Shown: one piece after another, positions 11,376 through 37,228 of the stretch | How the letters are laid out: every line of letters begins with the position of its first letter | Position numbering within the stretch: position 1 is the stretch's first letter | Origin: a virus | Virus record (IMG/VR): IMGVR_UViG_3300028573_000033 | Location: 1 to 39,021 of that record | Length of the DNA: 39,021 nt | Direction: 5' to 3' (one strand) | Translations under genes and position numbers: made by a program | Notes under the pieces: model-generated | The model's input: only the letters and a program-made list of their open reading frames with translations | Database searches by the model: none | Told to the model about the DNA's origin: nothing

Positions 11376-14300
11376 TCAGGGTTCCTGATTCGCGAGCTTC
11401 AGCGCGCTGGTTATTAGCTCATCGGGATAGCGCAGCAGCTTCTCCGTCGAACGCCCGTGCGCCTTCTTGGCCTTCTCTGCCAGGCGAAGCAACTGCGATG
11501 CCTTGGCCGCATGGTCGATCCGCTGGACCTTCCCGCCGGACGCGCGCCCGCGGCGCTCGGCCTCTTCCGCCTGCTGCGTCGCGCCCAGCAACTGATAGAG
11601 CTTCGTGAACGCCTCGATGTTGGGCCTGCCCTGCGCGTCGATCGCCCGCTCCAGCATCACCTTGGCGACCGCGGGATTGTCGAGCCCCTTCATCATCAGG
11701 GATACGATCTTTTCGTTGACCTTGGCGCGCTGCGCGTCGAGCAGGCCCTGCGCCTTTTCCCACAGTTTCTGGCCGATCTTGATCTTGGCGGCCGTCAGGG
11801 GCTCGCCGTGGAAGAACTCGCCGGCCGACACAAGATTGAGGGCATCCGAAACCGTGCCGCCCTCCTGATGCTTCTGGAAGCGGTCGAGCATGTTGCCGAA
11901 CAGTTTGGACGCCGTGTCCGAACCCGCCGTCGACTGCGCCGACAGAACCTGCTGCGTGCGCTGCATGTCCTTGGTCACGGCACGCAGGTACATCAGACCT
12001 TCGTCACCGAACAGTTTCTGGATGGCGCTGGGATTGGCGTCGACGAACTTGGTGATCTTGTCGGTGCTGAGAAAGTTCTCGCTCTCAAGGCTCATGCCGG
12101 CATTGGATGCGCCCGTGCGCCCCAGCAGCCAGTCCACCGCCGCCTTGCGCAAACCCGCCAGGGCGGCATCGTTGCCCTTCATGCGGTCTACGATCTCGCC
12201 CATGCGCTGGCCGCTGTTCTTGGCGCTCATGGCGGTTCCCACCATCGCGCGCACATCGTCGGCATCCTTGAGGTTCAGGAACCGCGCGGCTTCACCCTGC
12301 TGCGCCTCCTTCACCGCGATCTCCCGGTCCTCCATGGCACGGTTGAGTGCCCGGCCGGTCGAGGCGGGAGTGTTGAAGTTGTCGGAGAAGCCCGGCGAGA
12401 CCTCGTCGATCGCCTTCAGCGCCGGCCCGTACTTGGCGCGCCACTTGTTCAGCACGTCCGGATCCAGCGTCTCGCCCTTCATCATCTCGCGCAGGCGCGA
12501 AATCGCGATCGCCTTGATATCCGAAAGCGCCTCGGGCGACTTGTTGCCCTTGAGCCAAATCGCCGTCGCGTTGTAGCCGTTGTCCCCCGCCGGAAAGGCC
12601 GAGGCCGCCACCTTGGCGTCCGGGGGCCGATAGTCCCCCTTCATGCCGCCGTCGCGAATCTTCAGTGCGCCCGCCAGAGGCTCGGTGCCGTACAGCGACT
12701 TGAACTCGCCGTATTGCTTGTTGGCCGCCGCTAGTCGTTGTGCGGTGTCGGGCTCCAGATTAGGACTCGGCAGTCCTTCGCCGCCTGCCTCAGTTCCTCG
12801 TCCGGACACGCCTCGAGCCGGTTCAGAAACAGTACCTGATCGTAGCGCGGCATCCGCTTCAGTTCCTGCTGAAGCAGATGTACGTGCCTTGTCCTCGTAG
12901 AAGGCATCGACGTGTTGACGAAGTTTATGAGCAAACGTGTCCTCCGGGGCCATCTCACCCCGCGCCACTCTTTCTGCCTCGTATTTTACCTGATTTTCGA
13001 CAGCATTGGCCAATGCGTCTTTCACAGCCCCCTTCAGGCTCACGATGTCGGCATAGCCAGGGTCCTGCGACGCACCACCAGCCTGTTTCATCAGCTTCGT
13101 CAGGGCCTGATCCAAGGCACGCAGGCGAGCCAATGGCACGACACCCTTCAGGCTCGCGGCCTTGTTAAGCGCCTCCTCGGCAAGCGCGCTATGGGGAGCC
13201 AGGTCGCGATTAGGCTCCCTCAGAATTTCGTTCACCCGATCCAGCACCGGAGATGCCACCACATGCAGTTTCCCGTCCGGATCGATTGAGTCCAGCAAGG
13301 CACCCAGCCGCTTCTGCTCGCCCCCCTTTGTCTCGCTCAGTCCGGTGCGCAGGCTCTGGCCCCTCTCGTCGAGGTCGGCCTTGGCAATGCCGCTCGCCTG
13401 ATCCTTGGCCTTCTTCTCCAGTTCGCCCACGCGCTGCTGATGCTCCGCTTCGACGTCCTTGACGTACTTGCGGAACTGATTGGAGACCGCCACGGGGTCG
13501 GCACCCGCATCTGCGTTCTGGTCGATCAGGTCGCGACGCGCCGTGTTCTGCCGCGCCTCGCGAGCCTTCTGCGCCATCTGGTATTGCGCGGTCTTCGCCT
13601 TCGCCATCTTGTCGGCGGCGATCAAGCCAGGGTCCAGCGTTGCCTCGGCGGTCGAAGGATCGCTGCCCGGCACAATCGTCTGCTCCGGATGGGCGAGACG
13701 GCGCAGCGCCTGCTCCAGGTCCTTCGTCTCTGCAAGCAGCCGCGCATCGGCGGTCTTTGAAGCCTGCGACGGGCGATATTCGTCGATGATCGGCTTGGAG
13801 TACTTGGCGGCCTTCGCTATCGCCCACGGCGTCGCGCTCGAGGCGATAATTCCGGCGAGAGGATCACCCGTGTATTCGGTCGCCGTTTCACCCGCCGCGC
13901 CCGTAGTGGCGCCCATCAGAATGCGCTTGGCCAACGCAGCGCCAGCCTTGCCAGGGCTCATGCTGGTGGCAGCCTGCACTGCCGTAGATCCGATGCGGCC
14001 CGGTGTGCTTTGTGGCACGTACTCGCCCGTACGCTCGAGGATCGGCGCAACGACCTGTTCGCCCGTCGGCGTCTTTGGAATAAAACTCAGCGCCCTCCCG
14101 ATCGGTGTGTCTTCGGCCTGCTTGCGCAACGCCGCACGGCGCTGCTGCAATTCCTCCATGGACTTGCCGCTCGCGATCGAATGCCCGCGCATCACCAGAT
14201 AGTCGGTCAGGCCCTGCAGATCGCTCACGAACACCGGATTGGCCGGAGACGGAACGTGCGGCAGCCCCTTGATGATCGACGTGCCGAGGTTCTTCAGCGT

Positions 14301-14441
14301 GCCAGAGACGCCAGATTCGTTTGGACGATTGGCAAGCGGGCGCTCATCCGGCTTCGCCTGCGGAATGAATTCGGGAAGAGCGGCCGGAGCCTTCTTCCCA
14401 TTGACGTCCGGAATGAAATCAGGAAGAGGATCGGGCGGCAT
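11376..14441 (-). CDS. Large internal virion / DNA-ejection-type protein
   Basis: 1021 residues; the start is coupled to the upstream stop as TAATG. The N-terminus has two short repeats (LPDFIPDVN, LPEFIPQAK). An Ala/Gly-rich patch follows around residues 150-205, then long charged helical segments about 230-420 likely to be coiled coils (VSNQFRKYVKDVEAEHQQ). The C-terminal region is helical and carries RASGGKVQRIDHAAK, the GG-K motif shared with other virion proteins. Size, helicity and position after a transglycosylase-bearing protein match podovirus internal core or ejection proteins, which enter the host envelope with the DNA. The codon signature shifts to another frame around 12731-12907 (see the overlapping ORF). 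Confidence 0.7.
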   Translation of the reverse strand: MPPDPLPDFIPDVNGKKAPAALPEFIPQAKPDERPLANRPNESGVSGTLKNLGTSIIKGLPHVPSPANPVFVSDLQGLTDYLVMRGHSIASGKSMEELQQRRAALRKQAEDTPIGRALSFIPKTPTGEQVVAPILERTGEYVPQSTPGRIGSTAVQAATSMSPGKAGAALAKRILMGATTGAAGETATEYTGDPLAGIIASSATPWAIAKAAKYSKPIIDEYRPSQASKTADARLLAETKDLEQALRRLAHPEQTIVPGSDPSTAEATLDPGLIAADKMAKAKTAQYQMAQKAREARQNTARRDLIDQNADAGADPVAVSNQFRKYVKDVEAEHQQRVGELEKKAKDQASGIAKADLDERGQSLRTGLSETKGGEQKRLGALLDSIDPDGKLHVVASPVLDRVNEILREPNRDLAPHSALAEEALNKAASLKGVVPLARLRALDQALTKLMKQAGGASQDPGYADIVSLKGAVKDALANAVENQVKYEAERVARGEMAPEDTFAHKLRQHVDAFYEDKARTSASAGTEADAALRSGTVSEPARGVSGRGTEAGGEGLPSPNLEPDTAQRLAAANKQYGEFKSLYGTEPLAGALKIRDGGMKGDYRPPDAKVAASAFPAGDNGYNATAIWLKGNKSPEALSDIKAIAISRLREMMKGETLDPDVLNKWRAKYGPALKAIDEVSPGFSDNFNTPASTGRALNRAMEDREIAVKEAQQGEAARFLNLKDADDVRAMVGTAMSAKNSGQRMGEIVDRMKGNDAALAGLRKAAVDWLLGRTGASNAGMSLESENFLSTDKITKFVDANPSAIQKLFGDEGLMYLRAVTKDMQRTQQVLSAQSTAGSDTASKLFGNMLDRFQKHQEGGTVSDALNLVSAGEFFHGEPLTAAKIKIGQKLWEKAQGLLDAQRAKVNEKIVSLMMKGLDNPAVAKVMLERAIDAQGRPNIEAFTKLYQLLGATQQAEEAERRGRASGGKVQRIDHAAKASQLLRLAEKAKKAHGRSTEKLLRYPDELITSALKLANQEP
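12731..12958 (-). CDS. Candidate overlapping ORF inside the ejection-protein gene
   Basis: A 75-codon ORF from GTG (or 58 codons from the inner ATG at 12907) lies out of frame within the larger gene. From the ATG on, third codon positions in this frame are mostly G or C, about three quarters by hand count. The same stretch of the main frame is A/T-rich at third positions and encodes Ser/Gly/Ala/Glu filler. The alternative product (HVHLLQQELKRMPRYDQVL, FLNRLEACPDEELRQAA, CRVLIWS) looks like a normal helical protein. It may be a genuine overprinted gene, or the main frame may have been shifted here by two compensating indels. No strong ribosome binding site precedes the ATG. Confidence 0.35.
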   Translation of the reverse strand: MRWPRRTRLLINFVNTSMPSTRTRHVHLLQQELKRMPRYDQVLFLNRLEACPDEELRQAAKDCRVLIWSPTPHND

Positions 14442-17400
14442 TATTGAACCGGCTTCCAGCCAAGCTGTCCGTCTGGTCCCTGAACGCGCTTCATCTTTGT
14501 CGGCCCGCGCCCCTTCAGCATATCGAGGGGCAAGCCGTACTTGGCCTCCTGTCCCGGCTCTATGATGTACGTGTGGTCCAACTGAACGTCTTTCAGGTCA
14601 GGCGTAGCGCCGCGCGTGGCAAGTCCACGCTCTCTTTCATCGGCAATGGCAGTGAGATCGTTTTCCTTCTTGTTCAGCCAGTCAGCAGCGAATTGCTGAC
14701 GCTGAATGCCCGGATTGGCCGACGTCGCGGCACCGAATTCCTTGCCGAACTTGTCCGCCTGATCGAGCTGCCCATACAACATGGCAATGATCTTCCTGTT
14801 GGCCTCGGGCTGCAGCCCCGGATTCGCCGTGGCCCGCATCGAGTTATCGATCTCAGTGACCAACGGCTTGCCGCCCATGTCCTTCACGTCTGCGAAGGCA
14901 TTGCGGATGGCTGATTTCATAAACTCCTGATAGGCAGCGGCATTCATTCCCGCAGTGTTGGGGACATCGATGCCCAGCGACTTGGCCAGAGCCTGCGCCT
15001 CGGCCTTGAAATCGGACAGGGCCCCCGTCTGATAGAACTCCATCACCTTCGCGATAGTGTTGAGTTGCTGACGCGCACGATTGCGGGCGATGGACTGATC
15101 GGCCTGCTCGTTCATGTACTTCTGGTTCTCGGGGATGCGCTGCTTCCACGCCTGCATCTGGTCCCAGCCGGGAATGGCTACGACCTGGCCGTTGACCATG
15201 GCGTGGCCTTCGTTGCCGTACCTGTCGTAAAGCGCCTGCGCTTCGTTGCGGAACTTGTCGGCTGCCTCGCCATTGCCCAAAGCACCCTGCTCTCGCGAAC
15301 GCTCCATCAGCCAATCAGGGTTCTTCTCGTTGGGCAGTTGGCTGAAGTCCATCTTCGGCATGACCGCAGCGATCTGCGGAGGCGCCGCGGGCGGCGTGCC
15401 CGGCGTGTGCGGAGGCGCGTTTGCTGTCGCCGGAGGAGTCGGCGGGGCGCCTCCTTGCGGCGGCGGGGTCGGTGATCCAGCCGGGGCAGGCAGCGGCGCG
15501 ACCTTCACGGGCGTCGGCGGGGGAACGCCCTGCGTCGGCAGGGCCGGAGGGGACACGCCCAAGCCAGGACCGCCGCTCGGTGCGCCCTGCCCGGCGCTCA
15601 AGCCCTGTCCGGGCCCCGGCATGTAGCCGTAGAGCGCCTGGGACAGGCTGCGCAATTGACTGGTTAGCCATTCGGGCGGCTGCTGGCCATTGCGCGCGGC
15701 GGCCTGTGCCATCACCAGAAGCTTGTTGTACAGCTCGGTACTCTGCTTGACGCCTTCGATGCCGAGCCTGCCGACCGCCGTATTGGCCTGCTGCTGCGAA
15801 ATATCCAGCGCCTTGCCCTTCTGCGCCAGTTGGCCGTAGGTCCCGGCGCCAGCACCGAGGCCAGAGAGTATCGCGCTGCCCAGGAAGCGGCTGGGTGACG
15901 ACGCCATGCCGCCGAGACCGGACAGCAGCGAGATCACCGCGCGTTCTGTGCCCGACAGTCCGCCGCTCTCGCGATTCCACCAGTTTTCCTGCGGAGGCGC
16001 ACTCTGCGGCGAGGCGGAAAGGGCCGGTCCGTTGACGGGATCTGCCGCGGCGACCTGCTGCGGCTTCGCGCCTGTGTAGCGGTTCTGGAACGTCTGGGCG
16101 AACTGGCCGGCCGTCATGTCGAGCTTGCCGCCGTTGTCCAGCACGGCCTTCTTGGCGACGTCCGGACTACCATAGACCGGCGTTAGCACCTCAAGGACAT
16201 TCTTGTCGGGATTCTTGAGAAGGGCCGTCGCGCCCCCCGCGCCCTGACCGTGCGCCAGGTAGAGATTTTCAGGCGTGACCGGCAGCCCAGCCGATTCCAA
16301 ATCCTTCTTGTTCTTGCCCGCGTACCACATCGTCGCGGCTTTGGAGACGGCAGGATCCTTGCGCGCGGCGTCGACCTCTGCAGGCGTCTTGCCTTCAAAG
16401 AACTGAGGGTTTTCCTGCGCGAACTGTCCCCACGTCTTGCGGATGAATTGATGCGGGCCTGCCGGACCACCTTTGTCCTGCGGGAATTTGGGGTTCTGAT
16501 CCGTGCCGCCGCCCGTCTCGATCGCGGCCACCTTATCTGGATCGATCAGGTTGCTGACCGGCGTCAGTCCGCCGCCGCCTTCCTTGTGGATACGACCGCC
16601 TTTCGCCAGGAACGAAAGAACCATCGGAGCCATTTTGGCGATCGACTGCATCGCATTTCCAGCCCCGCTGCTGGTCGGCCCTTGCGCGGACATTCCGGGG
16701 AGGTCCACTGCGGGCATCTGGGTCGGCTTCATGCCACCGTCGCCCGTATCGCTGGATTTCTGGCTATCGCGCCCCTGATCATACATCTGGCCGTGCGAGA
16801 TAAGAATCGCACCCATGGGATCGTCCGACAGACCGCCGCCATTGTCCTTGCCGATCCGGCCGCCCCGCTTGAGGAATGTGTCGGTCATCGACCCCGACCC
16901 CATTCCCATCATGTTGCCCAGACCAGCACCACCGAAAATGTCGACCAGGCCATGTCCGATGCCGCTGCTTAGGCCGCCGCTTCCACCGCCACCGCCGCCA
17001 CTGCTTCCACCCCCCATACTCCCGAATACAGATCGGAGGGTTTGCGTTGCGCTCGGCTCATCGACACTGTCCGGCAGATATGATTTGGAGATTTCGCTGG
17101 TATACGGCAGGCCGCCGTTCGCAAAGCCGACACGACCGCCACTGGCATAGTTCGTCACAGGGTTGCCGGAAGCGTCGACCAGTTGCCCGTTGGAGTTCGT
17201 GTAGACGACGCTCTGGGCCGATCCTTGAGATGTCGGGGACGGCGGGGCGCTTCCCGGCGCCGATGCGCCCCACGTACCTCCGTAGCCCCACCACCCCCCG
17301 GTCGCAGGGTTACCCTTGCTTTCCTTTTTCCCGACGGCGGCTTCCTTGCCCGCCGAATACAGCCCCGCCAGGTTCTTGCCGAAATCCGCCGTCCGGTTGA

Positions 17401-18760
17401 GCGCGTCGATGCTGTGCCCGACTCCTGTGTTGCTGGACGCCTGATGGCTCATGCTCGGCAGGTTCACAGTCGGCATCTGGGCGTGGCCACCCGATCCGCC
17501 CGATAGCCCCACGCCATACGGACCCTGCGCGCCGATCGCAGACGCGCCCATTGGGGCATACATCGCGGCATGGGCGGCCAGGATCGAGCCGATGTCGTCG
17601 CTCAGGCCGCCACCTCCGGCCTTGCGCGGACGGAATTGCCCGTCGTCGCCCATCTCCATGTCGGTGATATCGACACGCCCGCCGCGGCGGAAGAACGACA
17701 TCGGCTGCGTCGCCGTGCCCGTGCTCGAACTCGTGGTTCCGTAGATCGGGGCCAGCGATGACGCCGTGTTTGTGAGGAACTGCGACGTCTGGAACGGGTA
17801 CGCCTGCTGCTGCAGGAACTGATTGTAAAGCGCCTGATCCTGCGCCTGTTGGGTCTGCTGCTGGAGCGTGCCCGCGCCCAACTGAGCGCCAGCCGCACCG
17901 AGGGCATTCGTCTGCGCCGTCGTGCCGAGGCCAGCATAGGTGTTGCCGAGGCCCTGGAACGCCTGCGCGCCACCCAGACCCTGGGTGTAGCCCATGTTGC
18001 CGATGTTCGCGAACTGATTGGCCGCCGACAGCCCCGTCTGCTGCTGCTGCTGCGCGGTGCCAAGGGCCTGCGTGAAGCCCGTGTTGTAAAGATTGGCAAT
18101 AACGGGCGAATTGGAGAGGTTTTGCTGATAGGCCAAATTCGCCGCAGCCACACCCGATCGATCGCCACCGAAGGCACCGGAGTTGATGGCCGAACCCTCA
18201 AGCTGGCTCTGCTGGATGGCGTTCTGCTGCTGCTGCTGATTCTCGGTCGCTTGCACGACGTTCTGGATGTAAGGCGACATCCACTTGCTGATCGAATTCG
18301 GATCGAGCTGCGAATTCGCGAACGTCCCGTACATACCGCCCGCTGTGCCCTGCTGCCCCGAACTCAGGCCGCCCCAAATCTGCTGCGCGGCCGGATAGAG
18401 CGATGACAGTGCCTGCTGCGAGTATGGATTGTATATATCGGCGGCATTGTTGATGTTGCCGATCGCCGTACTCTGCTGCTGGTTGACCGGCGCCACGAAC
18501 TCGCCGCCGTAGGTCTGAAAAGGCGCATTCGATGCGGCCGATGCGCGGTTCCACGCAACGTCTGCCATGGCCGTCGCCTGCGGTGCGCCGCTCACAGAAC
18601 CGGATTGGCTCTGCGTGCTCGTACCGCTCTTGCCACCGCCGAAGCACAAATGCCTCTTGGCAATCGGCGGGACGGATTCGTCGCCTAGCCAATCCTCAAG
18701 CGGCGCCCCGTCGTTCCAGACGGGCTGCGGCTCAAATGGATGCTTGAAGGATTTGATCAC
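14441..18760 (-). CDS. Giant virion protein with lytic-transglycosylase-like domain
   Basis: 1439 residues, starting at GTG and overlapping the acetyltransferase gene by 29 bases. Residues ~55-350 are Gln/Ala-rich with QQQ runs. Residues ~350-710 hold Gly-rich linkers and repeated GGR blocks (FFRRGGRVDITDM, YASGGRVGFANGG, FLKRGGRIGKDNGGG, FLAKGGRIHKEGGGG), plus an internal duplication around LSDD and QMP-x-V-x-LP-x-MS. Residues ~740-890 resemble a lytic transglycosylase fold: IETGGG with a candidate catalytic Glu, then GPAGPHQFIRKTWGQFA and LYLAHGQGAGGATALL. A Pro-rich linker (~1065-1145) and a helical C-terminal domain follow. The likely role is as an ejected virion protein that locally cuts peptidoglycan during DNA entry. 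Confidence 0.75.
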   Translation of the reverse strand: MIKSFKHPFEPQPVWNDGAPLEDWLGDESVPPIAKRHLCFGGGKSGTSTQSQSGSVSGAPQATAMADVAWNRASAASNAPFQTYGGEFVAPVNQQQSTAIGNINNAADIYNPYSQQALSSLYPAAQQIWGGLSSGQQGTAGGMYGTFANSQLDPNSISKWMSPYIQNVVQATENQQQQQNAIQQSQLEGSAINSGAFGGDRSGVAAANLAYQQNLSNSPVIANLYNTGFTQALGTAQQQQQTGLSAANQFANIGNMGYTQGLGGAQAFQGLGNTYAGLGTTAQTNALGAAGAQLGAGTLQQQTQQAQDQALYNQFLQQQAYPFQTSQFLTNTASSLAPIYGTTSSSTGTATQPMSFFRRGGRVDITDMEMGDDGQFRPRKAGGGGLSDDIGSILAAHAAMYAPMGASAIGAQGPYGVGLSGGSGGHAQMPTVNLPSMSHQASSNTGVGHSIDALNRTADFGKNLAGLYSAGKEAAVGKKESKGNPATGGWWGYGGTWGASAPGSAPPSPTSQGSAQSVVYTNSNGQLVDASGNPVTNYASGGRVGFANGGLPYTSEISKSYLPDSVDEPSATQTLRSVFGSMGGGSSGGGGGGSGGLSSGIGHGLVDIFGGAGLGNMMGMGSGSMTDTFLKRGGRIGKDNGGGLSDDPMGAILISHGQMYDQGRDSQKSSDTGDGGMKPTQMPAVDLPGMSAQGPTSSGAGNAMQSIAKMAPMVLSFLAKGGRIHKEGGGGLTPVSNLIDPDKVAAIETGGGTDQNPKFPQDKGGPAGPHQFIRKTWGQFAQENPQFFEGKTPAEVDAARKDPAVSKAATMWYAGKNKKDLESAGLPVTPENLYLAHGQGAGGATALLKNPDKNVLEVLTPVYGSPDVAKKAVLDNGGKLDMTAGQFAQTFQNRYTGAKPQQVAAADPVNGPALSASPQSAPPQENWWNRESGGLSGTERAVISLLSGLGGMASSPSRFLGSAILSGLGAGAGTYGQLAQKGKALDISQQQANTAVGRLGIEGVKQSTELYNKLLVMAQAAARNGQQPPEWLTSQLRSLSQALYGYMPGPGQGLSAGQGAPSGGPGLGVSPPALPTQGVPPPTPVKVAPLPAPAGSPTPPPQGGAPPTPPATANAPPHTPGTPPAAPPQIAAVMPKMDFSQLPNEKNPDWLMERSREQGALGNGEAADKFRNEAQALYDRYGNEGHAMVNGQVVAIPGWDQMQAWKQRIPENQKYMNEQADQSIARNRARQQLNTIAKVMEFYQTGALSDFKAEAQALAKSLGIDVPNTAGMNAAAYQEFMKSAIRNAFADVKDMGGKPLVTEIDNSMRATANPGLQPEANRKIIAMLYGQLDQADKFGKEFGAATSANPGIQRQQFAADWLNKKENDLTAIADERERGLATRGATPDLKDVQLDHTYIIEPGQEAKYGLPLDMLKGRGPTKMKRVQGPDGQLGWKPVQ

Positions 18761-19262
18761 TCGGGGCTGCCCTTTCCGCGATCTGCGGAGGTCGATACAT
18801 CCATGTCACGCCGCATGGTTTGCCGAAAACACGCTCGTAGAGCTTGATCTTCGATTCCAGGCGGATATTCGACAAAATCCCGATCATTAGGGGCAGTCCA
18901 AGCTGATCGGATGTCGTTTTCACAAACTCACACAGTTTTCGGGCGCGCCCTCCCTTGGCGGCCCGATAATCCGGATGCGTCCAAAGCCACCTCTCCTCGA
19001 TCATTGGCTTGGCTTGTGGACCTTCCTTAAAACCATACCAGAATGTCGTTATGCGCAAAAGGACAGCGCCCTCAATCGTGCCATCAGATGGCCCGACGAT
19101 GCCGACAATTCCAAAATCAAGATGGAGCGCAGGCCAGAATTCCTTAGCGATCTGATTGATGTCGAACGGCACCATCCCATTTTCCTGCGCGCCCAGTTTG
19201 GCCATCTCCATGAGGGTTGCCATGTCTGCCGGCGTTCCGGTGCGGACGATCACGTCGTTCAT
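18732..19262 (-). CDS. GNAT-family N-acetyltransferase
   Basis: 176 residues. The N-terminal IVRTGTPADMATLMEMAKL is a typical GNAT beta1-alpha1 start. The core strands follow (GTIEGAVLLRITTFWYGF, then ERWLWTHPDYRAAKGG), with a weakened acetyl-CoA loop at AAKGGRARKL and a late YERVFG-type helix. GNAT proteins transfer acetyl from acetyl-CoA to amines; phages often carry one among their structural genes, with substrate unknown. It starts two bases after the previous stop and its end overlaps the giant virion gene, so all are co-translated. It may modify a virion or host protein, which is inference. Confidence 0.75.
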   Translation of the reverse strand: MNDVIVRTGTPADMATLMEMAKLGAQENGMVPFDINQIAKEFWPALHLDFGIVGIVGPSDGTIEGAVLLRITTFWYGFKEGPQAKPMIEERWLWTHPDYRAAKGGRARKLCEFVKTTSDQLGLPLMIGILSNIRLESKIKLYERVFGKPCGVTWMYRPPQIAERAAPSDQILQASI

Positions 19263-19867: not shown

Positions 19868-20232
19868 CAGGTCGTCACTTGCTGCGGCTGCAGCGAATAG
19901 GTGGCGCTCACCAACTGCCCCGGCCCAGGAATCATCACGAGCCCGCTGTTGAAGTTGACGAACCCCTGCTGCGCTCCAAGGAAGGTTTGAATCGGCATTA
20001 TCTTGGTGCTGTCCGCAACTGCCCCGAAATTCGTGCAATTATAGATAAATCCCGGCGCGCTGCCAGCCGCGAGCACCTGGATATTCGCCACCCAGCCCGC
20101 CTGCGTCGACAGAACGACAGACGTGGCATAAGCCGGCGAGGTCGTGTTGCCCGCCAGAAATAGCTGCGTCGTCGCCAGATTGAAGACCGATCGCGGCGTG
20201 TTCAGGATGGCAGAAAGGGTTGCGGTATCCAT
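19867..20232 (-). CDS. Small beta-rich tail or neck protein
   Basis: 121 residues, starting at an ATG that overlaps the upstream stop as TGATG; its own stop overlaps the next start in the same way. The family is not named with confidence. The sequence is beta-rich and polar (VFNLATTQLFLAGNTTSPAY, GWVANIQVLAAGSAPGFIYN, LVSATYSLQPQQ), with no membrane or catalytic motif. Its place between the large hub protein and the GKS-motif protein suggests a minor tail or capsid structural part. Confidence 0.75.
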   Translation of the reverse strand: MDTATLSAILNTPRSVFNLATTQLFLAGNTTSPAYATSVVLSTQAGWVANIQVLAAGSAPGFIYNCTNFGAVADSTKIMPIQTFLGAQQGFVNFNSGLVMIPGPGQLVSATYSLQPQQVTT

Positions 20233-22355
20233 CAGAAGCGACCATCGGCCGTCCATCGGTAGCGGAGGCGCCCCGTCCGCCACCACGTTCCAATGTCATT
20301 GCTCTCAACCTTCACCGACACAAGCCGACCGCGGAACCGAGTCGAGATGTATGTGCTGGCCTGCGTCGTCGTGTACGGTCCGAACACCAGCGGCGTATCC
20401 CCGGGATACTGCGCCACATAGAACGTGATCAGGATCGTCGCGTTCTGTGCCTGCCCGGTCATGCCGTAGATCATGTCCGGCAGAATAAAATCGACGAACG
20501 TCTGCATCTGTCCGTCGCCGATCTCGAAATAGCCGGTCTGGAAAAAGGCATTGATCGACTGGCCGTCGGCGTCGTTCGACGTCTCGTGTTGGTAGAGATA
20601 CAGGCTCGTCGGATCGGCGCCGATCGGCGGCCCCAGCACGCTCTGGTTCGTCCATGCTGAGCGGCCAAGAGTACCGTAATCCCAACCGGCATCCGGCCCC
20701 ATGGTGATGTTGTACTTCACGTACATATCATTCTCGCCGCTCGCGCTGCTGGTCGACGTGAAATACCAAGTGATTTCGTTGAAGCGCGAATTCGGCGCAA
20801 CGCGGATGTTGCTCAGCTTGCTCTGATCCATAAGCTGGAAAACATTATCCCACACCGAACATGGCATCGGAGAAACGCCACCACCGTTCGGCATGGAGAA
20901 GAACTGGGACTGCGACATCCAGTAGATGATGCCGTTCATGGACACCGCGGCCTTTGGAGCAATCAGCCCGCAACCCGTTCCGATCTCGTTGAAGCCATAG
21001 ACAAATGGCTGTCCGATATACTGCATCGACCAGACGGCGAGATCGGTGAACACCAGCGCCTGGTTCGCCGCCTGAATGCAGCCCACGATCTTGGACCCGC
21101 GCGGAATGCGGTAGGAACCTGCCTGATTGGTCGGCTGCGCGATCCAGACGTTGTAATTGTTGATGTCGCACCAGCGCAGCAGGAGATGGTCCTGAATGCC
21201 GGTGAAGGTAGATCCCCAGCACACGATCTGCCGCTGCGGCATCGCGACGAAGCAGCCGTCATTGGCCGATGGTCCCGCTGCGAGCGCCAAGGCAACAGGC
21301 GTCGGCGCCAGAGGGTTCCACAGGAACACCGGACTGCCGGACGGCTCCGTAGTGTCGGAACTCACCTGAATGCCGGAAGCCACCGCCACGAAGATGTCGC
21401 CCCAGTTATCAAGCGCCCAATCGTCGGCCTCCATGTTGGAGCCAGTCGGCTCGACGGGGCTGATGCCCGTCCCGTATCCGCCCGCACCATAGGCACCCAC
21501 GCCATAGCCAGTGCCTGGAGGCAGAGGCCCGATGCCGACGAAGAAGTCGTATTGCGCGTTGCCGCCGTTGATATACCCGCTGGTGCTGCTGGTCGCCTCG
21601 CCGCCCGTCTGAATGACGAAGTTATTCGCGTCGGTCACGCTCTGGATGATGTAGTCGCCGTAAATCGTAATTACGCCGACTGTCGTGCTCACCAGGCACG
21701 GATAGGTATCGCCCACGGAATATCCGTGATTGGGTAGCGTGACCTGCACGGTCGAATTGTTGAGCACCACCGTGAACAGGGCGACCACGCCACCATTGGT
21801 GATGTTTGCCGTCGGGAAAATCGGATTGCCCAGAATGTTGGTGAGGTTCACCGCGAACTGGTTGGGGCTCACTCCGCTGCATAAAAAGAAGCCGAAGACG
21901 ATGATGCCCCCGACCGAAATATGCGTCGCGACAAAGACCGCCGTGTAATTGTTGATGTTCGACCCAGCATCCGTGATGAACACCGTGCTCGAGACTGTGC
22001 TGGTCGTGACCTCCGGGGCGACGTTGTCCAGCCGCACGATCGGCGTGATCGTGTTCAGCGCGCCATTGGTCAGGATCATCAGCGGACCGCCCAGCGTCGT
22101 ATCCGCCGCCGTAGAGCAGCCGATGCCCAGGTGCTTGCCATGGTTCTGGTCCTGCCATGGCCAAAGCTGGCGCGGGATCGCCGGCATCTGCGAGGGGTAG
22201 AACTTGGTCCACCCGCCCAACTTTTGCACCAGCGATTCGCCCCGCCGATCCTTCCACAGCCGGATCAGGTTGCACGAGGAGATCGCTGCCTCGTTGAGCG
22301 CCTGACTTCGGTTGGTATCGACGCCCGGAAGCAGTTTGAGAGAAGCGGTTGCCAT
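20232..22355 (-). CDS. Large tail hub / head-closure protein (P22 gp10-like, inferred)
   Basis: 707 residues from MATASLKLLPGVDTNRSQAL; the ATG overlaps the upstream stop as TGATG. The N-terminal LPGVDTNRSQALNE followed by CNLIRLWKDRRGESLVQKLG, and a C-terminal half with repeated blades (LLLRWCDINNYNVWI, IPRGSKIVGCIQAANQALVF, GLIAPKAAVSMNGIIYWMS, RFNEITWYF, NDMYVKYNI, WDYGTLGRSAWT), resemble the DNA-stabilisation or tail-hub proteins of P22-like podoviruses. A Gly/Tyr-rich linker (GTGYGVGAYGAGGYGTG) lies near residue 300. It would plug the portal-adaptor channel and hold the spike. The P22 comparison is by pattern, not by search. Confidence 0.65.
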   Translation of the reverse strand: MATASLKLLPGVDTNRSQALNEAAISSCNLIRLWKDRRGESLVQKLGGWTKFYPSQMPAIPRQLWPWQDQNHGKHLGIGCSTAADTTLGGPLMILTNGALNTITPIVRLDNVAPEVTTSTVSSTVFITDAGSNINNYTAVFVATHISVGGIIVFGFFLCSGVSPNQFAVNLTNILGNPIFPTANITNGGVVALFTVVLNNSTVQVTLPNHGYSVGDTYPCLVSTTVGVITIYGDYIIQSVTDANNFVIQTGGEATSSTSGYINGGNAQYDFFVGIGPLPPGTGYGVGAYGAGGYGTGISPVEPTGSNMEADDWALDNWGDIFVAVASGIQVSSDTTEPSGSPVFLWNPLAPTPVALALAAGPSANDGCFVAMPQRQIVCWGSTFTGIQDHLLLRWCDINNYNVWIAQPTNQAGSYRIPRGSKIVGCIQAANQALVFTDLAVWSMQYIGQPFVYGFNEIGTGCGLIAPKAAVSMNGIIYWMSQSQFFSMPNGGGVSPMPCSVWDNVFQLMDQSKLSNIRVAPNSRFNEITWYFTSTSSASGENDMYVKYNITMGPDAGWDYGTLGRSAWTNQSVLGPPIGADPTSLYLYQHETSNDADGQSINAFFQTGYFEIGDGQMQTFVDFILPDMIYGMTGQAQNATILITFYVAQYPGDTPLVFGPYTTTQASTYISTRFRGRLVSVKVESNDIGTWWRTGRLRYRWTADGRF

Positions 22356-23056
22356 CAGCGCGTCGGCGTGGCCACGGGCGACGGCGACTGCGACGTCCAC
22401 GCCGCGCTCGCGAACTTCTTGCGCTGCTCCTCGACCTCGGCCGACTTCAATAGCGTCTGATACTGCATCTCATATGACCCCGGCATCTGCGGATCGTTCG
22501 CTGCGGCGCCGAACTGACGCTGGTATTGCGAGATGTAGATCATCGACGCCTGGACGTAGAGATCAGCGAAGTACAGCGAAAGGAAGTTCGTCGTGTTGGT
22601 CGTCGACAGCGGCGTGAAGCGCACCGTGCCGACGAGTTCGACCGTGTAGCCCATGTCGGGCCACGGACCGAAATAGAGCGTGTTTTGATTGAACATCGCG
22701 AACTGCGACGGGATCGCAGCCCCTGCGCTGCTCGGCCACGTATAGTCCAACACTTCCTTCGCCACCGGCAGGCACGGATTGCGCGTCGCCGCATTGGGGT
22801 TCGATGTGCCAACCGGCGTCAGGATATTGACGTTCTGTATCGTGACGAACGTGCCCTCGGTGAAGGTGATCGCTCGCGTATTGGCCGTCAGGGCGAATGT
22901 CGTGTTGCTGCTTACCGTCGCCAGCAAATCCAGATCGCGCTGGATGCGCAGTTCCGTGTAGTCGATCGCGTTCGGCAGGATGGCGAGGAAGTCCGTCGAT
23001 GGCGGCACAATGACCGCCAACTCCGAAACCGTCGTGACATATTCGGCGTAGTTCAC
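22355..23056 (-). CDS. Head-tail connector / adaptor protein
   Basis: 233 residues starting at GTG, coupled to the upstream gene by a GTGA overlap. The N-terminal region (MNYAEYVTTVSELAVIVPPS, then FLAILPNAIDYTELRIQRDLDLLAT) is the pattern of podovirus adaptors that dock under the portal. It is followed by beta-strands (FALTANTRAITFTEGTFVTI, LYFGPWPDMGYTVELVG) and a helical tail (YEMQYQTLLKSAEVEEQRKK). It is encoded directly before the hub protein, as expected for a connector. I am confident of the class, less so of the exact family. Confidence 0.7.
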   Translation of the reverse strand: MNYAEYVTTVSELAVIVPPSTDFLAILPNAIDYTELRIQRDLDLLATVSSNTTFALTANTRAITFTEGTFVTIQNVNILTPVGTSNPNAATRNPCLPVAKEVLDYTWPSSAGAAIPSQFAMFNQNTLYFGPWPDMGYTVELVGTVRFTPLSTTNTTNFLSLYFADLYVQASMIYISQYQRQFGAAANDPQMPGSYEMQYQTLLKSAEVEEQRKKFASAAWTSQSPSPVATPTR

Positions 23057-36248: not shown

Positions 36249-36962
36249 TTAAATCGCACGGCTTTGGCCGCCATCGACGACAATATTCGCCCCATTTACG
36301 AGGCTCGCGAGTGGGCTGCACAGGAACGCGACCACGTTCGCCACCTCTTCGGGCCTGCCCATCCGCCCAAGCGGCAATTCTTCGTTGCCCAGCCCCGGCT
36401 TGCCGACGTCGATCAGGCCAGGCGCCACGCTGTTAAAGGTGATGCCGTCGCGGGCGAGGTAGGACTGGCTGGCAAGGGACTTCATCAGGGCGGTCTGCGC
36501 GGCCTTTGCCACCACGAACCATGGGCGCCCGTTGCCCTCCTTGCCTCCAAGGATGCTGGTGATTGTGACGACGCGGCCCCATTTCTTTTTCCGCATGCGT
36601 GGGATTGCCGCCATCGTCAATTCAGCCGCGATGCCGTAATTCTTCCGCGAGACCTCATCCCATACTTCGGAGCCAGTCTCTTCGGCGATCTCGCTTCCCC
36701 AGCGACCGCCGCCGCCGACGTTGTTAATGAGGATATCGACCTCAATAGATGACCATCCGCCATATTTTGCGTCGCCCTCCCATGCGCGAATTTCCGTGCC
36801 ATAAATAATCAATTCCTGCCGCGCCGCCTCCAGCCGTTCCAAGTTCCGCGCCATGATCGTCACGGCGCAGCCCTGTTGGGCCAGCGCCCGGGCGATCGCA
36901 AAGCCGATGCCGTGGCTGCCGCCCGTCACCAACGCATGCTTGCCGGTCAGTTGGAGGTCCAT
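36249..36962 (-). CDS. Short-chain dehydrogenase/reductase lacking the catalytic Tyr
   Basis: 237 residues from the ATG that overlaps the upstream stop (TGATG). Rossmann motif TGGSHGIG (residues 13-20), NNVGG in place of NNAG (80-84), and the PG-type segment FNSVAPGLID. The catalytic Ser is present at 136 (TITSILGG), and Lys is at 153, but the position of the YxxxK Tyr, 13 residues after Ser, holds Phe (WFVVAK, Phe149). SDRs reduce or oxidise hydroxyls with NAD(P)H using that Tyr as acid/base. The enzyme may be an altered subfamily (I recall similar PWF-x-x-AK forms) or inactive. It is likely part of sugar modification with its neighbours. Confidence 0.85.
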   Translation of the reverse strand: MDLQLTGKHALVTGGSHGIGFAIARALAQQGCAVTIMARNLERLEAARQELIIYGTEIRAWEGDAKYGGWSSIEVDILINNVGGGGRWGSEIAEETGSEVWDEVSRKNYGIAAELTMAAIPRMRKKKWGRVVTITSILGGKEGNGRPWFVVAKAAQTALMKSLASQSYLARDGITFNSVAPGLIDVGKPGLGNEELPLGRMGRPEEVANVVAFLCSPLASLVNGANIVVDGGQSRAI

Positions 36963-37228
36963 CACCACACCAGACGGATTATGAGAGCGGCCACAAAGAT
37001 CGATTCAAAAAGGAGAAACCACGTCAGGAAAGTCAGCCAGATACCGCCGTCTTTCCACCAGTGGTAAATCCTGCCGTCGAGAGTCAGGCGCGTTTCTGGG
37101 CCGACGATTCCAATATGTGATGGTGTCCAGAAGCATTGGCCTTCGCGGGCACAGGTGTTGGGACAAAGAGCGCCCTCATTGACGACGCAGACGCCACGCG
37201 TTGGTTCACGCTCAACGATTTTCTGCAT
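36962..37228 (-). CDS. Small Cys-rich protein with C-terminal membrane helix
   Basis: 88 residues, ATG six bases after the transketolase stop with CGGAG upstream. The first half has three Cys (CVVNEGALCPNTCAREGQCF includes a fourth), which could form disulphides or bind metal. The last ~24 residues (WLTFLTWFLLFESIFVAALI) are one membrane helix with a short basic end. It lies between two sugar-cassette enzymes. No family recognised; an envelope or membrane-tethered role is possible. Confidence 0.6.
   Translation of the reverse strand: MQKIVEREPTRGVCVVNEGALCPNTCAREGQCFWTPSHIGIVGPETRLTLDGRIYHWWKDGGIWLTFLTWFLLFESIFVAALIIRLVW

Follow-up and report, generated by a model that had tools for sequence, protein, structure and literature searches.

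Small genes lying wholly inside a larger gene are known in phages, the nearest described arrangement being the embedded two-component spanins Rz/Rz1 of phages lambda and T7 (PMC6139136), in which the embedded gene occupies the +1 frame of its host gene, has its own start and is usually missed by gene callers. Rz1 is, however, a Pro-rich outer-membrane lipoprotein nested in a lysis gene. More generally, same-strand +1 overlaps in which one of the two products lies in a disordered region have been documented among overprinted viral genes (PMC8227390, PMC8903798), although the survey of such genes used annotated reading frames. Ejection proteins of podoviruses, such as gp14/15/16 of T7 and gp7/20/16 of P22, have also been reviewed (PMC8954989), and the text of that review contains neither "overlapping" nor "reading frame". 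Here we describe a stretch of a large predicted virion gene that also appears to encode, in the +1 frame, a second small protein predicted to be helical. The window analysed, that is, the whole stretch of DNA under study, is the 39,021-base virus record IMGVR_UViG_3300028573_000033, which carries terminase, portal and major head protein genes. Features of the window are collected in the following table.

Features of the 39,021-base window discussed in the text
Coordinates	Strand	Feature	Supporting data
11376..14441	-	Main gene, 1021-aa predicted internal virion (ejection-type) protein, directly downstream of the 1439-aa neighbour	ORF; no PHROG or Pfam family matched by the protein itself
12731..12934	-	Overprinted gene in the +1 frame, most likely extent: TTG start at 12934, 67 codons, TAG stop at 12733-12731	Profile match; start inferred from Shine-Dalgarno strength
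12731..12907	-	Alternative extent from ATG 12907 (58 codons), the core shared with relatives	ATG within two codons of the ATG used in L014 when the main frames are aligned
12731..12958	-	+1-frame ORF from GTG 12958, a further alternative start	ORF
12941..12945	-	GGAGG Shine-Dalgarno-like sequence, 6 nt upstream of TTG 12934	Duplex energy -9.5 kcal/mol, bottom 5% of background start sites in the gene
12765..12872	-	Main-protein residues 524-559, predicted disordered linker that pays for the overprint	AlphaFold2 pLDDT 32-46 at residues 521-560, between confident helices 503-524 and 564-584
14441..18760	-	Upstream neighbour, 1439-aa DNA ejection protein homologue	phrog_4287, E=1e-10
18732..19262	-	Acetyltransferase-like gene	phrog_1249; a relative (MW202675) has a "putative acetyltransferase" in the matching position
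36249..36968	-	FabG-like 3-oxoacyl-ACP reductase	phrog_3142

A preliminary description of this sequence had noted that the coding signature moves to an overlapping frame between about 12907 and 12731, and had proposed either a genuine overprinted gene or two compensating indels. Our analyses confirm the observation. The main gene loses third-position GC at codons ~515-555, GC3 falling to 0.24-0.36 in 25-codon windows over codons ~521-545 against mostly 0.6-0.95 elsewhere, while the +1 frame shows there a GC1/2/3 of about 0.76/0.24-0.36/0.72-0.80, a normal coding profile. The lowest 25-codon GC3 (0.16), as well as the 35- and 45-codon minima, were never reached in 5000 permutations of synonymous codons within the gene that kept the protein and the codon usage. 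By contrast, the length of the +1-frame ORF is not significant, since a frame open for 84 codons was common with this protein (2730/5000 permutations). The evidence rests on the codon signature and its conservation in relatives.

Direct searches with the window protein found no homologue in phages, viral contigs or genome contigs, and weak hits in Acinetobacter, Klebsiella and Mycobacterium are attributed to chance. An 8.5-kb contig (IMGVR_UViG_3300031247_000029), probably from the same virus, encodes a protein segment 100% identical to residues 1-635 of window 20232-22400, but does not reach the overprint. Going through the conserved start of the neighbouring gene led to locus L014, with a full-length relative at 33% identity whose gene shows the same dip of GC3 at the same place and a +1-frame ORF. 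These two sequences alone would not have settled the question, as BLASTP of the window peptide against the L014 peptide gave no hit and a shuffle test of the pair gave p=0.11. The L014 protein in turn found relatives on Aureimonas (pAU20g) and Microvirga plasmids, annotated only as one large hypothetical protein or not at all, which also carry a +1-frame ORF at this place with a visibly similar product. Notably, the 28-41 kb "non-mobilizable" plasmids carrying this ejection-type gene family (L097, and the Microvirga terrae and M. lotononidis plasmids L098 and L099) contain no phrog_38 terminase, and may be phage-plasmids with another terminase, or remnants. A profile of four main proteins then found 27 loci in IMG/VR. 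In the record of one locus, L116, the terminase large subunit match (G004:C1:34036-35808) carries three in-frame stops (1 TGA, 2 TAA), perhaps reflecting a decayed prophage or an assembly problem.

The +1-frame products share a pattern of roughly PG..l...L..l.p.dR..fLa.lEq.ak..DLe.LRAir.YR. A profile built from members picked out by eye also found members that were not in it, namely the loci L120 (9e-18), L123 (2e-13), L111 (3e-13), L098 and L130. In every case the frame was +1 relative to the main gene and the product ended in its own stop. Counting new loci from a reciprocal scan, 30 of the 35 main genes examined, including the window, carry this related protein of ~60 aa, although one of them, L118, is a weak member (8 bits). 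The window copy is divergent (17 bits, four codons shorter in the core), yet against the profile of the 28 other aligned members it was the only significant one of the 891 six-frame segments of the window (E=1.7e-4, the next best being 0.98).

We asked whether conservation of the main frame alone could produce this pattern. In 24 genes, synonymous codons were shuffled with the main protein unchanged and the +1 frame was rescored with a profile that left that gene out. Observed scores of 27.7-81.9 bits, and of 14.0 bits for the window (null maximum 8.4), were not reproduced in any of 300 recodings of any gene, the null maxima being 8-24 bits. Searches with the small protein alone pointed to the same place. 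A tblastn search of 7.3 Gb of plasmids with the Microvirga peptide hit only the two Microvirga plasmids and Aureimonas, all at this location, and a scan of 2.9 million viral contigs of IMG/VR returned 15 loci, all of them in the +1 frame of a >900-aa ORF of the same family, five being new family members. Over the shared core, the +1 frame is more conserved than the main frame (34% versus 24% identity, higher in 221 of 253 pairs). Likewise, third-base identity at four-fold degenerate main-frame codons was 100/147 (68%) inside the overlap and 1407/3298 (43%) outside (p=1.5e-9), an effect seen in 9 of 10 pairs despite main-frame amino-acid identity being lower inside in most pairs. Since pairs share sequences, this p-value is approximate, and the exception is the window-L014 pair (1/7 versus 98/206), probably because the linker alignment is poor. 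A dS test on the two Microvirga plasmids was discarded, as the main gene is there a recombinant mosaic, with synonymous divergence mostly 0.3-0.8 over codons 1-350 and mostly below 0.12 over codons 351-600, so that the apparent p=8e-9 is not evidence.

AlphaFold2 on the aligned family predicted three helices at a mean pLDDT of 81.6, whereas the main protein of the window is predicted to be disordered exactly at the overprint. Ten members scanned against Pfam, NCBIfam and PHROGs gave no significant match, and neither sequence searches of the PDB nor fold searches of the PDB and BFVD returned anything at E<=0.001. Literature searches, restricted to open-licence papers, brought up no description of the family. 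Unlike Rz1, the product shows by inspection no lipoprotein signal, with no N-terminal hydrophobic stretch with Cys, and is hydrophilic (GRAVY -0.35 to -1.07 in six members). Its host gene, of ~860-1860 aa, is no i-spanin, follows in the window an ejection-protein gene and is predicted to encode an almost wholly helical product. It is moreover the embedding frame, not the embedded one, that is predicted to be the disordered partner.

Taken together, the comparative data support with high confidence that the stretch is dual-coding, very strongly for the family and only slightly less so for the window copy, even though there are no expression data of any kind here and translation has not been shown. 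Paired indels are refuted, since relatives should then carry this segment in the main frame. Instead, their main frame is there also a variable Gly/Ala/Ser/Pro linker and the small protein is out of frame in every one, while both ends of the main frame align through the segment in L014 without a frame change. The expectation under which the preliminary description would have been contradicted, conserved main-frame residues with free change in the alternative frame, is the opposite of what was found. It is also very unlikely that low GC3 and a protein-like +1 translation are mere by-products of the linker. Such linkers do raise GC2 and keep the +1 frame open, but permutations keeping the exact main protein reached neither the GC3 dip nor the family score, and synonymous sites are constrained. 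As to its expression, internal initiation on the late mRNA from its own ribosome-binding site is likely. Each of the 30 members has an ATG, GTG or TTG between the last +1-frame stop and the core (23.7 expected, p=5e-4), although ATG alone is only marginally enriched (p=0.05-0.09), and the best Shine-Dalgarno match among candidate starts is stronger than background (combined p=1.4e-5, corrected for the number of candidates). Programmed +1 frameshifting near codon 500-525, yielding a truncated ejection protein with this segment as its C-terminal tail, appears improbable but is not excluded in the absence of a systematic search for slippery sites. The +1 frame is open upstream of the core in all members, a frameshift product would show the same conservation, and some members have weak or no Shine-Dalgarno sequences (L115, L117, L107). 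In L107, however, the open frame begins at an ATG directly after a stop, leaving almost no room for a shift.

The function of the small protein could only be guessed. We tentatively propose that it is a small partner of the ejection protein made from the same message, such as an assembly or packaging chaperone or a minor virion component, because the scan found it only inside this gene, though this link rests solely on co-occurrence. It is quite possible, although short of probable, that the gene is unrelated to the ejection protein, for example a host-takeover, anti-defence or regulatory factor parked in a tolerant late-gene linker. Small phage proteins are often accessory, and the family can live without this one, as it is missing from five relatives (L119, L126, L124, L128 and L133). 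Nevertheless, a parked accessory gene should also turn up elsewhere. On a tree of main proteins built without the overlap, the five genes lacking the small ORF lie in separate places (five changes, at least three forced by well-supported branches), and with presence so widespread several losses are the simplest reading, although the root is unknown. L119 and L126 have only a short linker there, and L124 and L128 a different inserted stretch. In L122 and L125 hundreds of residues follow the overprint, and the 1701-aa main protein of L125 (L125:1149-6251) matches phrog_5143 and related unknown families between the overprint and the PNF motif. The small gene sits therefore at the border between a shared N-terminal module and variable later modules. 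A more speculative and rather unlikely possibility is that the small gene is the older partner, the large protein having been made when reading ran through a pre-existing small gene in another frame, so that a gene became a linker joining two modules. The embedded protein is indeed the better conserved one and is predicted to be ordered, in contrast to the linker.

Overall, these results show a general recipe for high-GC phages, in which a local switch of GC3 into another frame, followed by a test that holds the main protein fixed, finds such genes even at extreme divergence. They also offer a concrete small protein to test for a role in genome ejection or virion assembly, and a case for asking which of two frames came first. 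A protein family conserved across alphaproteobacteria-linked phages and plasmids over very long divergence, with host proteins down to 20-35% identity, has stayed invisible because gene callers refuse embedded frames, the same blind spot that hid Rz1, but in a virion gene instead of a lysis gene.
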